DNA of 38,379 nucleotides from Acidobacteria bacterium 13_1_20CM_3_53_8 (GTDB lineage Bacteria > Acidobacteriota > Blastocatellia > Pyrinomonadales > Pyrinomonadaceae). The position numbers and the translations under genes were made by a program. The notes under the pieces are model-generated. The model ran no database searches and was not told the DNA's origin. It saw only the letters and a list, made by a program, of their open reading frames with translations. The DNA is taken from NCBI GenBank assembly GCA_001920415.1, contig MNJR01000071.1, positions 1-38,379 on the forward strand, read 5' to 3'. Shown here one piece after another: positions 14,034-20,884 of the stretch (positions are counted from its first letter, which is position 1; the number at the start of each line of letters is the position of its first letter).

Positions 14034-15173
14034 TTACAGCAGCAGCGTCTCTACACGATGTGCGTGAACCATCTCTTCACACGGTGACCACGCGAAGACC
14101 GTGAAGCGACCGTCTTGTGACGCCACCAGCGCGATGGAGTCACGCTGATCCTGTACGAACTGCGCAGCAGATAGATGCCGGGTTCCGCCAAATTGTACTG
14201 GATGGACGATTGAGGCCACGCCACCAACAATCGGCTCCGTCACGACCACCTGTTCAATCTGTGCGCCACCATCGCGCCGACCGATCTTCGCGCCGAACGC
14301 GAGCAACTCATACTGACTGCTTATCACGGTTGCGCCGTCCACTGCGGTCAGGCCAGCAATAGCTTCAACAGCATCAAGTAGCGCCTCCTGCCACAGACGC
14401 CTGTTCCTCATCTCCTCGCCCTGTCGCATAAGATCGGCTAGTTCGGAGTATGGAGGTGCGACAGAGTATGCGATGGGATGCACGATTGACTCCTGCCACG
14501 CTTCAGAGCCTTGTGGAACGACCAGGAGGCTTCCGCCTCTACTGTGCGCGCGCATGGAGGCGGCCAATTGTATGAGCACGTTCACAGAGTCTGAATCGGA
14601 GTCAGGCGAACCGAAGTCGAGTAGCGACGTAAGAAGGGCAGGGCAATCGGGCAGGCTCGCGCCCTCTTCGTCCACCACCTTGATCTGGTCGCCTTTGAGC
14701 ACTACTACGTTGACGAACTTGCTTGGCTCCTGGCCTCTGCGGTACTTGACGACCAGCAGTCCGGGTTCGATAACTTCCAACACTAAGCAGAGCTTAGGAA
14801 TAGTGCGCGTGGTTCCCCACACGCTCAGTTGGTCTAGGTCGCGCCAGATGCCCAGATGTATACCGGGGCGCTCCACGGCAGGCGCGAGTCTGGATAAGGT
14901 TGTAGGGGTGAGCGGAAGAACATGCTCGAACAAGAGCGGCTGCCCGGCCTGATTGGGCGGCAGATATGCTAGCGATATCTTCGGCGAGTAACCTTCTTCG
15001 CGCCGTAGGCTAGCCCAGAACGCAGCATCTATGATCGCTTCTATTGCTTGAGCGTCTGGTTGTGGTGCCAGTTCTTGCTGTATGTGCCGTCGCACCTCTG
15101 CGCGATAGCGATTGAAGTGTGCCTGCACAGTTGCGGCTACCGCACGGGCAGCAGGGTATGAGGGTTCTGTCAT
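14034..15173 (-). CDS. DACNV sensor plus divergent DisA_N (diadenylate cyclase-like) domain protein
   Basis: A 379-residue soluble protein. The N-terminal ~240 residues resemble the DACNV 'probable sensor' domain, and the C-terminal ~115 resemble the DisA_N/DAC fold that makes cyclic di-AMP. Two DAC hallmarks are visible: D279-G280-A281 (VDGATVISS) and a GTRH motif at 330-333, followed by DSIALVASQDGRFTVFAW. The third residue of the usual RHR is Leu334, so catalysis is uncertain. DACNV proteins have been proposed as nucleotide cyclases with attached sensors; my family call rests on motif recall, not a search. It is a single gene, leftward, with GAGG about 12 bases before ATG 15173. Confidence 0.6.
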   Translation of the reverse strand: MTEPSYPAARAVAATVQAHFNRYRAEVRRHIQQELAPQPDAQAIEAIIDAAFWASLRREEGYSPKISLAYLPPNQAGQPLLFEHVLPLTPTTLSRLAPAVERPGIHLGIWRDLDQLSVWGTTRTIPKLCLVLEVIEPGLLVVKYRRGQEPSKFVNVVVLKGDQIKVVDEEGASLPDCPALLTSLLDFGSPDSDSDSVNVLIQLAASMRAHSRGGSLLVVPQGSEAWQESIVHPIAYSVAPPYSELADLMRQGEEMRNRRLWQEALLDAVEAIAGLTAVDGATVISSQYELLAFGAKIGRRDGGAQIEQVVVTEPIVGGVASIVHPVQFGGTRHLSAAQFVQDQRDSIALVASQDGRFTVFAWSPCEEMVHAHRVETLLL

Positions 15174-15385: not shown

Positions 15386-15919
15386 ATGTGTTCAGTTATA
15401 ACTCATCCGGTTGTCCCACTGGCGCTTTCCGTCTTCCTGCCTGAAGGAACTTCCTCGTCCGCGTTACTCATTGCCGGAGCCGTCTGCTCTGTTATCCCAG
15501 ACCTGGACGTGATCGGCTTCAGCTTCGGCATAAGCTACGGCGACATGCTGGGTCACCGCGGCCTCAGCCACTCTATATCCTTTGCTGTAGTCCTTGCCAC
15601 GCTGCTCACCTTAACACTGTTCCGCGATGCTCACGCCAATCATTTCGTAGTCTTCCTATTCTTATTCTTATCAACTTTATCGCATCCACTGTTGGACGCG
15701 CTAACGAACGGCGGGCTGGGCGTGGCTCTATTTGCCCCGTTCAGCAACGAGAGGTATTTCTTTCCATGGAGGCCTATAGAGGTATCACCGATAGGAGTAG
15801 GCAGTTTCCTCTCAGCAAGAGGATTGCAAGTGCTGTGGAGTGAGTTTAAATGGGTATGGCTGCCTTCGTCTGTAGTATTTGCCGTAGGACAGATTATTCG
15901 GCGCTATGTCTATTCATAG
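15386..15919 (+). CDS. YdjM-like membrane-bound metal-dependent hydrolase
   Basis: A 177-residue multi-pass membrane protein of the YdjM/YfhO-like family of predicted inner-membrane metal-dependent hydrolases (PF04307 type). The family metal-binding pattern is visible: an N-terminal THPVVPLAL, D-L-D in IPDLDVIGF, HRGLSHS near residue 57, and SHPLLDALTNGG near 102. It has about four to five hydrophobic helices. Substrate is unknown; homologues are often LexA-regulated or phospholipase-like in annotation. A purine-rich AAGGAAAG lies about 15 bases upstream of ATG 15386. It is divergent from the DACNV gene, with a 212-bp gap between them. Confidence 0.78.
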   Translation: MCSVITHPVVPLALSVFLPEGTSSSALLIAGAVCSVIPDLDVIGFSFGISYGDMLGHRGLSHSISFAVVLATLLTLTLFRDAHANHFVVFLFLFLSTLSHPLLDALTNGGLGVALFAPFSNERYFFPWRPIEVSPIGVGSFLSARGLQVLWSEFKWVWLPSSVVFAVGQIIRRYVYS

Positions 15920-16818: not shown

Positions 16819-18819
16819 ATGAAAGCCATGGAAACTTTTCAACGGCCAGAGCTAAAAGAGCGCGCACCCGAAAACAAAGACCTGGACGCAGCCGCATTGC
16901 AGGCCATAGCACAGGCAGCCATCAACGTGGAACTATTTACCATTCCCCTATACATGGTCTCTCTGTTCTCGATTCAAGGGATGCACCAGATCACCAGTGG
17001 GGGAAATAATTTTTATCAAGGCAGGCTGTGGCCGGGCGCATCTCCGTCGCCTGATCCTGAGAACGATCCTGTCAACCCTACCAATGCTCTTGCGTTCAAC
17101 CATTTCTTCAGCGTCTTTATAGACGAGATGCTGCACCTGCAACTGGCCTCTAACATCGCCAAGGCTCTGGGCGTAATGCCGTCCTATACCAGCGACGCGT
17201 TGCAGGATAAAAATTACGGCTGGACTTGTTACGACAATACAACAGTTCTTCCGCACATCCTGGATTTTCAGGACACCATCGCCGGATACAACGACATCAA
17301 GGTGAAACTGGACGCGTTGACGCTGGAGCAGAACCGGCTCTTTCTGGCTATTGAAGAGAATGATGAGGATGCGAAAAGCATTATAGACCCGTCAAAAATA
17401 GGCAACTATTTTCCTTCCGTCCCGTTTGAAAACTGGAGCACGGGCGATACAGAGGCAAACCTCCCTATGTTCGGCACCATCGGCTGGATGTACAAATGCC
17501 TGTGGCAGTACATGGAGATAGTGTACACGGACAAAACCAGTCTGTTTGAATACGTCTTTAACCGTGGCACTCTGGAAAGAGACCTCTTTAATGCCCACAG
17601 CAGTTATCACAAGCCTGAGTATCCGTTGATGCCTACAATGGCGTCCGGCCAAATCATTGTACCGAGCGCTATGGAGAATATCCTTAAGATGATTAACGCC
17701 ATCACGGATCAGGGCGAAGGCTCAGGCGTAGCCCACTGGATCAGGATGATGCGAGGGCAAGTCGAATACGCGCCAGTCCAAGAGCAGTTTCAACCGAGCG
17801 AGGCCGCCTTAAATTTCGACTATCCAAACTACACAGACACAGGAATAGAGGATAATCCTTCGGGAGATACAGTCGCGCGAAGCGAAAACGGCGGGCTTGA
17901 CCATCACGATCGCTTCCTAGCTATCAATGCTCTGCTGGAGACTGGGAAGGTTGTCACATGGGATCAGTGGCACGCGAGCGGAAACCAGTGGACGGCTGAT
18001 ATGCTCAAGACTACCGGCTACGATTTGAACAAATGGCCATTGCCGTCCGCAGAGGATGTAGCAGCCGCGCTAAATAAGATGAAGGCGGACGCCAACAATT
18101 ACGAAACCTTCAGTCAGGTAGCCGCAGGTTCTATTGCGGGAATCACACGCGTGCTGTCCGACTTCTGGGCGAGTGAGACGACTTCATTTCCCAATCCTTC
18201 TATGTATGGGTCGGGCGATCGCGTCTCGATCTGTTGGGCTATCTTCGGACAATATCCTGACATCACGAAAGGAATAGTAGATAAGACGCCGGGCACTCTA
18301 TACCACGCTTGTCAGGCGTTGGACATTGACAGCCCGGATAACAGTTGCGCGCCCGTTGCGGTCTTTCACTCCTGTCGCGGCTCGAACGATTGCAAGGCAG
18401 AAGGAGGCTGCGGCTTTGTTCAGTTAGTGGGTGAAACCAAAGTCTTGTGCGGCATGAAGGTCTTGAAGGAAAATCTGAAGCCCGTCCCTCCCTTGCAGGG
18501 CATTCTCAAACTTTATAGTGCCCCTTCAGACAACACCTGCACAGGTTTTGGCGGCTGCGCCATCCCGATTTCGGCCTCTCAGTTGTATCCAGCGCCAGAC
18601 TCTTCCAATCCTAATAATGCAGGAACGATGGAAGTCTTCGATTTAGTACCTCCCACGCCCGTAAAACTGGGAAACATAGAATACTCTATGGGCGACAAGG
18701 TGTATGACATTGCATGGAACGCTTATATTGAGGTGCTGAAATCCCGCAATGTGAATCCTCTGCCTGAAAAGCCAACGGTGGATAGCGACCTGCGCCTTGC
18801 ATTTCCGCCATCAACTTGA
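16819..18819 (+). CDS. Ferritin-like (VioB/PF12902-type) protein with cysteine-rich C-terminal tail; candidate MNIO substrate
   Basis: A 666-residue protein. The N-terminal ~270 residues match the ferritin-like domain found in iminophenyl-pyruvate dimer synthases: AAINVELFTIPLYMVSLFSI, then FFSVFIDEMLHLQLASNIAKALG, which supply the Glu and ExxH ligands of a di-iron site. After a middle region, residues 498-580 carry eight Cys (498, 510, 519, 525, 531, 544, 574, 580). They include SCRGSNDCKAEGGCGF (518-533) and DNTCTGFGGCAIP (571-583), similar to the C-x5-C-x5-C core of bufferin-like peptides. There is no signal peptide. The start at 16819 follows AGGAGA. The MNIO oxidase gene begins 20 bases after the stop, so the tail is plausibly its modification target; this is inference. 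Alternatively it is an enzyme with structural metal sites. Confidence 0.8.
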   Translation: MKAMETFQRPELKERAPENKDLDAAALQAIAQAAINVELFTIPLYMVSLFSIQGMHQITSGGNNFYQGRLWPGASPSPDPENDPVNPTNALAFNHFFSVFIDEMLHLQLASNIAKALGVMPSYTSDALQDKNYGWTCYDNTTVLPHILDFQDTIAGYNDIKVKLDALTLEQNRLFLAIEENDEDAKSIIDPSKIGNYFPSVPFENWSTGDTEANLPMFGTIGWMYKCLWQYMEIVYTDKTSLFEYVFNRGTLERDLFNAHSSYHKPEYPLMPTMASGQIIVPSAMENILKMINAITDQGEGSGVAHWIRMMRGQVEYAPVQEQFQPSEAALNFDYPNYTDTGIEDNPSGDTVARSENGGLDHHDRFLAINALLETGKVVTWDQWHASGNQWTADMLKTTGYDLNKWPLPSAEDVAAALNKMKADANNYETFSQVAAGSIAGITRVLSDFWASETTSFPNPSMYGSGDRVSICWAIFGQYPDITKGIVDKTPGTLYHACQALDIDSPDNSCAPVAVFHSCRGSNDCKAEGGCGFVQLVGETKVLCGMKVLKENLKPVPPLQGILKLYSAPSDNTCTGFGGCAIPISASQLYPAPDSSNPNNAGTMEVFDLVPPTPVKLGNIEYSMGDKVYDIAWNAYIEVLKSRNVNPLPEKPTVDSDLRLAFPPST

Positions 18820-18839
18820 TTCAGGATTGACCTTTCGAA

Positions 18840-19760
18840 GTGCAGAATATCCAACACAAACGCCTGGGACTTCCCTTACTCGGCCTGGGCGTTGGTCTGC
18901 GAAACCAGCATTTCTCTTATCTGATGCGACACGAAGCGCAGGTGGATTGGTTTGAAATCATCAGTGAGAATTTCATGGATAATTTTGGCTATGCGCGCCA
19001 TGTACTGGAGCGCATAGCTGCAATCCGCCCAATCGTTATGCACGGGGTTTCGATGTCCATAGGGAGCACAGACCCTCTGGACTGGCACTACTTGAAAAGA
19101 CTGAAAGCGCTTGCAGAATTTGTTCAGCCCGTATGGATTTCAGATCATTTATGCTGGACGGGCGTTGCACACGTGAACACGCATGACCTTTTGCCCATGC
19201 CCCTGACTGAAGAAAGTCTAAGACATGTGATTGGCCGCGTCTGTGAGGTTCAAGACTTCTTGCAGCGACCTTTGATTTTGGAAAACCCTTCGACCTATCT
19301 TGAGTTCAAGGAGTCAACTATCACCGAATGGGATTTTCTGTCGGAGCTAGTGAGGGAGACAGGCTGCGGGCTTCTTCTAGACGTGAACAACGTCTATGTG
19401 TCCAGCTACAATCACGGCTACGACCCGGAGCATTACATCAGAAACCTTCCGTCCTCAAGCATAGTGCAAATCCATCTGGCAGGGCCGACCGATTGCGGAG
19501 GGTACATGGTAGACACTCACGATCAACCCGTGCCGACTCGCGTCTGGCATCTTTATAAACTTGCTCAGGAACTAACGGGCGGCGTAGCAACTCTTTTAGA
19601 GTGGGATGCAAACATCCCGGATTTCCCTGATCTGGTTGCGGAACTCCGAAAGGCCGAGGACGCGCTAAAAGGAATATTTCCTGATGCAGCGATTCATAAG
19701 TCCGGGGAAGCCGATGTTGTTTCCAATCCGGTAGATTTCCAGTTGTCTCTTAAACGATGA
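18840..19760 (+). CDS. DUF692/MNIO family multinuclear non-heme iron oxidase (BufB/MbnB-like)
   Basis: A 306-residue TIM-barrel enzyme of the MNIO family, whose members modify Cys or other residues of ribosomal peptides using two or three iron ions. All family ligand positions are visible: H68 (MHGVSMS), D102-H103 (SDHLCW), E148-N149 (LENPSTY), D181 with NN (LLDVNNVYV), H212 (QIHLAG), D225 and H227 (DTHDQP) and E254 (LLEWD). Length is typical. It starts with GTG at 18840, 20 bases after the ferritin-like gene and without a strong Shine-Dalgarno; no alternative start precedes the barrel. Its stop overlaps the DUF2063 start (ATGA). The likely substrate is the Cys-rich tail of the upstream protein. 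Confidence 0.93.
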
Positions 19761-20611
19761 CCGATCAACCCTTGAGCCTCTTGCAGCATTGGATGAAGAC
19801 TGTAGTTACCGAGCGCGGCAGTCTCAGTGAGAAATTGCAGTCGTCCTCCGAGCAGCATGGTTTGAGTATAGAGGACGTTGTGGCCGAAAAGCGTGGCCTT
19901 TCGGCCCAGACACGTCTCAGCATTTACACGAGCGGTTACGTGCTTCGGTTGCTTGACTGTATGAGGGCAGATTTTCCGGCACTGCGTAATTTTGTAGGCG
20001 ATTCTGTTTTCGATGCGTTTGCCAAAGCCTATATCATCAACAGGCCGCCGCGCTCTCCCAGTTTGTATGATCTGAGCGCAGACTTTCCGCAATTCCTGGA
20101 GGAGACAAAACCCCAGAAAAGTCCGCTTGATGCGCAACTGAGTAGCATGCTGGATTTACCCTCAGAGTTAGCCAGACTTGAGTGTGCGCGTGCAGAAGTT
20201 ATGCGCGCGCACGGCACTGAAAACGATACGGTGAGAGCGGAACCCTTTGCGCCATTCGCAATTTTTAATGAAGATATTACGCTTCAGGCTACGCCATGCT
20301 TGCGGCTGCTTGAGCTAAAATTTCCTCTGGTTGATTTTCTCAGAAGATCAGACCAGGGCGAGCGGCCTGAGCCTCCTACGCCACGAATCTCGTTTGCCGC
20401 GATAGGTCGGTCGAATTATCGCATACACATGGAGGAAGTCGCGCTCTGGCAACTTGCTTTCATGAAGGCTTGCGAGCATCCAACCTCCCTTTATTCAGCC
20501 GTGCAGCATGCTGCCCGTGAAAGCGGAAAAGAAACAGCTTCTGTGCTTGCTGAATTGGTGGTCTGGTTGCCGATTGCGATGGAGTTCGGATTCTTGCGCC
20601 AAGTCACCTGA
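19757..20611 (+). CDS. DUF2063 family partner protein of MNIO (BufC/HvfC-like)
   Basis: A 284-residue protein. The N-terminal ~100 residues match the DUF2063 helical domain: [39 protein letters not shown], then [19 protein letters not shown]. The remainder is the usual C-terminal domain of these proteins. In characterised MNIO systems this partner delivers or recognises the precursor peptide (RRE-like function, as in MbnC); the older label 'putative DNA-binding domain' is likely wrong. ATG 19757 overlaps the MNIO stop by four bases, so the two are translationally coupled and probably form a complex. A miniature element follows 57 bases downstream. Confidence 0.88.
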
Positions 20612-20668
20612 AAGATTCCTTTGAGAGAGTCTACGGCTAAGTACGCTGCCGCCCAATCCGGCAACTCA

Positions 20669-20817
20669 TACCGGATTGCAGAATACAATAAGGTCAAAAG
20701 ACCGCCCACGAAGACACACGCGCACGACACGAAGTCAGGAGTTAGGTTTCGTGTCGTGCGCGTGTGATGCGCGTGGATAGTCTTTTGCTGTACCTTATTT
20801 TATTCTGCAATCCGGTA
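20669..20817. mobile_element. MITE-like element, TACCRG family copy 2 (149 bp, TCA duplication)
   Basis: The ends are TACCGGATTGCAGAATA and TATTCTGCAATCCGGTA, with AATAAGG / CCTTATT inside, near-perfect over about 24 bp. The core is a second palindrome, ACACGCGCACGACACGAA against TTCGTGTCGTGCGCGTGT. TCA occurs immediately outside both ends (20666-20668 and 20818-20820), giving a 3-bp TNA target duplication. No coding capacity. Confidence 0.72.
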
Positions 20818-20884
20818 TCATTTAACCCGACCGTTCGATAGCGTGGCTTTCATGCTTATCTTTACAAATGTTGGTTGAATGCTC

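Follow-up and report, generated by a model that had tools for sequence, protein, structure and literature searches.

The described systems closest to the one reported here are those of the Buf2/BufA2 bufferins with BufB and BufC (MNIO-PME1 systems, 'captophorins'), in which the genes follow the order substrate, MNIO (DUF692), DUF2063 partner. BufA2 belongs to a class of substrates with a Cys-Lys step (PMC13097082), and BufA2 bufferins are expected to have a Sec or lipoprotein signal peptide. A survey of MNIO substrates suggests that these enzymes may modify proteins too, and describes bufferin fusions of the types MerC-Buf1/2, Buf1-CytC-FGE and EGKC-EF-hand (PMC12452194). Here we analyse a three-gene set from Acidobacteria bacterium 13_1_20CM_3_53_8, located in a stretch of 38,379 nucleotides (nt) of contig MNJR01000071.1 that is referred to below as the window. 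The set encodes a ferritin-like protein of 666 amino acids (aa) with a Cys-rich C-terminal tail, an MNIO and a DUF2063 protein, and is an MNIO-DUF2063 system with a conserved, probable enzyme-substrate fusion and split relatives.

The locus shares with the Buf2/BufA2 systems its gene order, an MNIO that scores above the BufB cut-off, a C-x-G-x-N-x-C core and, by way of a stand-alone Cys protein discussed below, homology of the substrate. It differs from them in that the likely substrate is a 666-aa ferritin-like protein whose tail lies below the BufA2 cut-off and in whose family the Cys-Lys step is not general, and no DoxX or sigma factor gene was recognised among its recurrent neighbours. As in the published bufferin-domain fusions, an MNIO substrate domain is joined to a larger protein. 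However, the main text of PMC12452194 describes no ferritin-like fusion (the word 'ferritin' does not occur in it), the MerC and EF-hand fusions given there are membrane proteins, and its Buf1/Buf2 fusions are a few instances, whereas the present fusion is a family found in five phyla. A literature search for DUF692/MNIO with a ferritin, PF12902 or VioB domain returned no title or abstract opening on this combination, most subscription papers and supplements being outside its scope. A looser parallel is provided by the LodA/LodB-type quinoprotein oxidases, where a neighbouring gene is proposed to mature an oxidase post-translationally and, in fungal loci, a PF12902 gene is near; the proteins and the chemistry are different, and the likeness is an analogy only (PMC4417212).

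Scanning genome contigs with the single window protein as query gave no relative. A five-sequence alignment, from which patterns in the ferritin domain rather than the tail were taken, detected 162 relatives, and the best 80 by similarity to the window protein were examined. These 80 loci come from Acidobacteriota, Ignavibacteriota, Bacteroidota, Pseudomonadota and Actinomycetota; they are near relatives of the window protein, several from the same genera, so that the counts are not independent. All 80 have a C-x-G-[ST]-N-x-C core in the tail. The original prediction, which took this tail as the likely MNIO substrate, had named homologues with the same tail and no DUF692 neighbour as evidence against itself. 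The 80 loci do not refute it: an MNIO gene lies directly downstream on the same strand in 78 and a DUF2063 gene is present in 77, and the exceptions all fall at contig ends (both genes in L053 and L088, DUF2063 in L034). The distance from the ferritin stop codon to the start of the MNIO match in the 78 loci has a median of 29.5 nt and a maximum of 255 nt. Two Pseudoalteromonas plasmid records, with only two annotated features each, show the same gene order, and the window genome belongs to the same family as two genomes (Acidobacteria/Acidobacteriota bacterium) whose contigs are among the homologue records. A distant search of E. coli genomes gave no match.

A control census asked whether MNIO tracks PF12902, the Pfam family of the ferritin-like domain, or the Cys tail. 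PF12902 was searched in eight individual genomes and in samples of 185, 296, 296 and 297 genomes, and the surroundings of the 46 strong PF12902 places outside the discovery set were read. Not counted among the 46 are the window, the eight PF12902 members that make up the discovery set, and 25 rows with weak, partial matches (E 2.9e-6 or worse), of which 16 pass the Pfam cut-off; a second match in G323 was to the same open reading frame (ORF). A Cys module was found by profile in nine places, within the ferritin-like ORF in three (L127, L128 and L158) and as a separate protein in six (L120, L131, L132, L133, L135 and L141). MNIO and DUF2063 occur in all nine, compared with none of the 37 places without the module (Fisher p 9e-10, the genomes not being independent), where neither gene is found within about 4.5 kb. 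Two of the 37 (L143 and L144) are on contigs of about 3 kb that cannot show all neighbours, and the stricter count is 0/35. In this census, MNIO presence follows the Cys module.

The 666-aa protein has Cys at positions 137, 227, 472, 498, 510, 519, 525, 531, 544, 574 and 580, and the earlier count of eight between residues 498 and 580 is correct, as is the C-x5-C-x5-C motif noted there (C519-x5-C525-x5-C531), which recurs in 82/82 homologues. In an alignment of 83 sequences, window included, C498, C519, C525, C531, C574, C580 and H517 are invariant; C510 and H496 are kept in 81 and C544 in 79. Because the tail Cys residues are conserved across this alignment, the eight-Cys pattern is not due to chance. 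(L016 and L017 repeat the contigs of L010 and L011; they are counted among the 80 loci and left out of the 83 rows; the divergent members L127 and L128 were found later and lie outside these counts.)

The six split clusters occur in two gene orders. Four of them, all from Bacteroidota, run PF12902, Cys protein (192-218 aa), MNIO, DUF2063. The remaining two are from Actinomycetota and begin with the Cys protein (238 aa in one, 205 aa in the other), followed by MNIO, DUF2063 and lastly PF12902. The stand-alone Cys proteins are thus 192-238 aa in length, with 11-14 Cys; the three scanned against Pfam have no family over cut-off, and two give sub-threshold BufA2 matches in NCBIfam (E 0.0005 and 0.0007). 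Profile comparison with hhalign aligns the fused tail with the separate protein at 97.9% (E 4.6e-13), rising to 98.4% over 113 columns (E 7.3e-15) when the tail is extended to the C-terminus, and aligns the separate protein (together with the L158 tail) with ten BufA2 sequences at 94.6% (E 7e-8, 33 columns). None of 100 column shuffles reached the observed score in the tail-separate (97.9%), separate-BufA2 or tail-BufA2 comparison. Each form is also recovered in searches with a profile built on the other: the fused-tail profile detects L158 and every one of the six separate proteins (E 2e-6 to 4e-4), and the separate-protein profile detects L127 (E 3e-7), L128 (E 9e-8) and 56 of the 80 fused ORFs. 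Since the module is a separate protein before the MNIO gene in split loci, the window protein looks like a fusion of an enzyme and an MNIO substrate. By published description, the adjamnio-I family (122-293 aa, 8-21 Cys, no signal peptide; PMC12452194, Table 2) resembles the stand-alone Cys protein in size, Cys number and gene position; its reported partner is PME type 2 (PMC12452194), unlike the three split-cluster partners tested, which pass PF09836.

No other candidate substrate was recognised nearby. Outside the ferritin gene, no ORF of at least 30 aa in the 80 loci or the window matches any of the three Cys-module profiles at E 1e-3, and in the window's own genome (95.9% complete) the only match of the separate-protein profile, at E up to 1, is the window tail; the earlier statement that no short precursor gene is present holds at this sensitivity. 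Taken together, the comparative genomics strongly supports a link between the tail and the MNIO, and oxidation of tail Cys residues by the MNIO and its DUF2063 partner is likely.

The positions of the three genes and of their parts are given in Table 1. They are co-directional, as predicted, with a gap of 20 nt (18820-18839) between the ferritin and MNIO genes and an ATGA shared by the end of the MNIO gene and the start of the DUF2063 gene. Between positions 15900 and 21500 of the window no Rfam family was matched, and a promoter scan found 4 candidates where 3.5 were expected.

Table 1. Features of the ferritin-MNIO-DUF2063 locus (positions in the window).
Feature	Position	Strand	Basis or remarks
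Ferritin-like ORF, 666 aa	16819..18819	+	ORF list; Pfam; homologues
PF12902 body (residues ~1-480) and C-terminal Cys-rich module (~485-666) of the 666-aa protein		+	Module homologous to stand-alone protein
PF12902 domain	16912..17733	+	Candidate di-iron ligands E38, E103, H106, E300
Cys module, residues 496-592	18304..18594	+	C498, C510, C519, C525, C531, C544, C574, C580 with H496, H517
Core C-x5-C-x5-C, C519-C531, CRGSNDCKAEGGC	18373..18411	+	Window sequence
Conserved C-terminal segment, residues 625-666	18691..18816	+	First part aligns with C-terminal part of stand-alone Cys protein
MNIO (PF05114) gene, GTG start	18840..19760	+	Pfam; over NCBIfam MNIO_BufB cut-off
DUF2063 partner (PF09836; PME type 1 in published scheme)	19757..20611	+	Pfam

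The MNIO matches PF05114 at 353 bits (cut-off 25) and the NCBIfam model MNIO_BufB (NF050167) at 356.5 bits (cut-off 310), and therefore belongs to the class named as bufferin maturases. The family set of His, Asp, Glu and Asn residues, which includes the presumed iron ligands, is conserved in alignments with homologues and with PDB 3bww; it is as conservation of these positions that the claim of an MNIO with all iron ligands holds. The partner protein, assigned to DUF2063 from the outset, matches PF09836 at 65.9 bits (cut-off 27.2), which places it in PME type 1, and HvfC only weakly (33.8 bits against a cut-off of 142). A second, different MNIO gene is found elsewhere in the same genome (L002, contig C60, 758-2837, minus strand), under all curated subfamily cut-offs; upstream of it is a 134-aa ORF rich in Lys, Ala and Gly with a GCPGCKSG motif, and a 201-aa ORF overlaps its end. 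This MNIO and the 134-aa ORF are possibly a new MNIO precursor pair.

The body of the 666-aa protein matches PF12902 at 72.3 bits (cut-off 22.3) over residues 32-305. E38, E103, H106 and E300, together with H362 just outside the match, are each invariant in 83/83 aligned sequences, a set compatible with a di-iron site in which these residues may act as ligands. The description of the protein as a VioB-type ferritin-like protein was correct as to the ferritin-like domain and too specific as to VioB: no NCBIfam family is matched at E 0.01 (VioB model TIGR04492 included), and in the ferritin tree the protein is apart from L122 and L123, both of which pass the VioB cut-off. It thus shares with other PF12902 proteins, including VioB, a ferritin-like domain over the Pfam cut-off, and differs from the 37 of 46 census places that have neither the Cys module nor MNIO.

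Trees were built from 43 MNIO rows and from 67 ferritin-domain rows (L162 left out). The Buf2-linked MNIOs form one clade of 12 rows (support 100/99), and the Bacteroidota split MNIOs group with L158 and L012 at moderate support (93/87). In the ferritin tree, the main fused family, L012, the Bacteroidota split set with L158, and the Actinomycetota split set occupy different places, and the label 'no MNIO' needs at least four changes even on strongly supported branches, in an alignment of divergent helical domains with an arbitrary root. Because of these linkage changes, the association of PF12902 proteins with this Cys module and its MNIO probably arose, or was lost, several times.

Neighbouring genes were surveyed as ORFs of at least 90 aa in the available flanks of the 80 loci, many of which are shorter than 6 kb a side. 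Thirteen families recur in at least five loci and none in more than eight; as no other gene exceeds 8/80, the three genes look like the core. Three of the recurrent families extend across genera: a LysR regulator (8 loci), an ABC-exporter-type protein (7) and a phosphatidylserine decarboxylase-like protein (6). Those within one or two genera include LrgA (8 loci) and glutamine cyclotransferase (7), and a PorP/SprF protein and a cadherin-like protein are each found in five Mucilaginibacter loci. Ribosomally synthesized and post-translationally modified peptides (RiPPs) are marked by leader removal and export of a small product; with regard to these, the families in at least 5/80 loci include the ABC-exporter type and an RTX/serralysin protein in six, and none is near general. 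All six loci of the latter are from Caulobacter (one being L036:85-5820); the protein is large, has an RTX/serralysin C-terminus and is encoded upstream of the ferritin-like gene. Six Bacteroidota loci have a weakly DyP-like neighbour, mostly upstream; the protein at L026:4403-5983, directly upstream of the ferritin-like gene, is weakly DyP-peroxidase-like (E 0.011, below cut-off).

Two other sets of PF12902 loci bear on function. Three of the six split clusters (L131, L133 and L135) are preceded by a flavin adenine dinucleotide (FAD)-dependent amine or amino-acid oxidase and a thiamine pyrophosphate (TPP)-dependent enzyme. The L133 flavoprotein matches PDB 7x7i (E 9e-152), the L131 flavoprotein is an Amino_oxidase similar to the flavoprotein beside VioB of Janthinobacterium LM6 (E 1.4e-11), and the L135 oxidase was assigned by its evident similarity to the L133 protein. 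These clusters are possibly a small-molecule pathway with PF12902, reminiscent of VioA/VioB. In addition, two PF12902 proteins without MNIO have other redox modules: L126:3217-5331 (minus strand) has a C-terminal 4Fe-4S ferredoxin-like domain and two CDGSH domains, and L134:4387-7641 (plus strand) has an FAD-oxidoreductase-like and a Rieske-like stretch, both below equivalog cut-offs. From the oxidase and TPP neighbours and these redox modules we infer that the Cys module may belong to the ferritin-like oxidase as a metal or redox component that is matured in situ.

The 666-aa protein is, on balance, probably a cytosolic PF12902 metalloenzyme fused to an MNIO substrate, with the tail Cys, oxidised by the MNIO and DUF2063 protein, forming a metal or redox module. 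In the proposed mechanism, the BufB-class MNIO and its DUF2063 partner, of the RiPP recognition element (RRE) type, would bind the C-terminal module, an MNIO substrate of an extended Buf2-like type. The MNIO would then oxidise some of the conserved tail Cys, most likely to 5-thiooxazoles as in bufferins, and the oxidised residues would form a site for a metal, probably copper, or for redox chemistry, which remains joined to the ferritin-like oxidase. We give the thiooxazole assignment an even chance. A working metal or redox component of this enzyme is a likelier role for the module than that of a secreted metallophore; that the module serves the ferritin-like enzyme, beyond metal storage, is given slightly less than an even chance.

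Several observations weigh against this interpretation. The tail had been called bufferin-like, a description that holds by way of the separate Cys protein and is weak in direct comparison, where fused tail and BufA2 align at 40% over 13 columns. A BufA2 profile finds none of the 80 fused ORFs, and the NCBIfam BufA2 model (NF050166, cut-off 60 bits) matches two of 51 tails (best E 0.015) and does not match the window tail. As regards the BufA2 pattern of six Cys with a Cys-Lys core, the six Cys are present in 83/83 sequences, and the residue after C525 is Lys in 37 of the 82 homologues only (otherwise His in 21, Arg in 13, Ala in 8, Thr in 2 and Glu in 1); the divergent member L128 has His at the C525 position itself. 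FonBC, from another subfamily, is reported not to process a NACKG variant (PMC13097082). In the MNIO tree the fused-type MNIOs branch from a poorly resolved base, outside the Buf2-linked clade. Reading of the N-termini by eye, no predictor having been used, shows no apparent signal peptide in the window protein. By a crude score, the maximum 10-residue hydropathy in the first 30 aa, the window protein reaches 0.88 and 82 homologues have a median of 0.68 and a maximum of 1.69, compared with 1.84-2.26 for three BufA2 proteins; the 666-aa protein thus lacks, on hydropathy, what is expected of a BufA2 bufferin. DUF2063 partners are described as going with signal-peptide precursors (PMC12452194), and the window family, with no apparent signal peptide, therefore departs from that correlation. 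Finally, the family is patchy. The full-length protein is found in three of 97 relatives' genomes (the window's own, G034 and G048), with a divergent protein (28% identical) in G019 that is encoded with the same three genes (L012), and the tail profile, searched in 297 genomes of the window's phylum, matched the window's genome only.

The alternative that fares best, while still unlikely, is a cytosolic metal buffer: the modified tail would sequester copper and the ferritin-like body would oxidise or store iron or copper, for detoxification and without a small-molecule substrate. In its favour are the published role of bufferin-type MNIO-DUF2063 pairs in copper stress and the described fusions of bufferin domains to MerC and to EF-hand domains (PMC12452194), as well as the absence of metabolic genes from the core operon. 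On the other hand, no metal resistance, DoxX or sigma factor gene was recognised among the 13 recurrent neighbour families (one of which was not scanned, and rarer neighbours were not examined), and three split clusters lie beside genes for an amino-acid oxidase and a TPP-dependent enzyme.

A somewhat less likely explanation places the ferritin-like body in a RiPP-like pathway, as a tailoring oxidase whose substrate is the MNIO-modified module; the two would meet in trans where the cluster is split and in cis where they are fused. The separate Cys protein beside PF12902, MNIO and DUF2063 in the split clusters is in keeping with this, as are the presence of VioB in PF12902 and the ABC-exporter-type protein in 7/80 fused loci; but all 80 close homologues retain the fusion, the ABC-type family was found in those seven stretches only and is on the opposite strand in six of them, and 37/46 census places have a PF12902 protein without such a substrate. 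A tail that simply binds Zn or Fe-S in the ordinary way, with an MNIO that modifies another, unlinked protein or a small molecule, is improbable: the Cys spacing with two conserved His could form a metal site and L126 has Fe-S domains at the same place, but MNIO follows the Cys module (9/9 vs 0/37) even where the module is a separate gene, and no other module-like ORF occurs in the 80 loci or the window's own genome.

Two further features of the window lie outside the three genes. Directly 3' of the DUF2063 gene, at 20663-20823, is a palindromic element of about 155 nt with outer arms of 32 nt (91% complementary) and inner arms of 19 nt (perfect); it is dispersed in the genome (57 BLAST matches, with both strands of the same places counted) and looks like a miniature inverted-repeat transposable element (MITE) or a repetitive extragenic palindromic (REP)-type repeat. 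At 14034-15173, on the minus strand, is a gene for a protein with a DACNV sensor domain and a weak match, below cut-off, to DisA-type DAC.

MNIOs are known for modifying peptides, and the system described here is a widely distributed family in which an enzyme is the likely substrate. It suggests that MNIO chemistry can mature a whole enzyme and not small peptides alone, and the fused, split and substrate-free PF12902 relatives form a natural comparison set. Questions that become testable are whether MNIOs act on large folded proteins, whether DUF2063 partners need a signal peptide, and whether thiooxazoles can be enzyme cofactors. A more speculative extension, possible though less than probable, is that the MNIO and DUF2063 protein are maturation factors that build a thiooxazole-ligated cofactor into a ferritin-like oxidase, in cis in the fused form and in trans in the split form. 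If true, this would amount to a new class of enzyme cofactor produced by post-translational modification rather than a peptide natural product or metal buffer, taking the place that ferredoxin, CDGSH or Rieske-like domains have in other PF12902 proteins such as those of L126 and L134.

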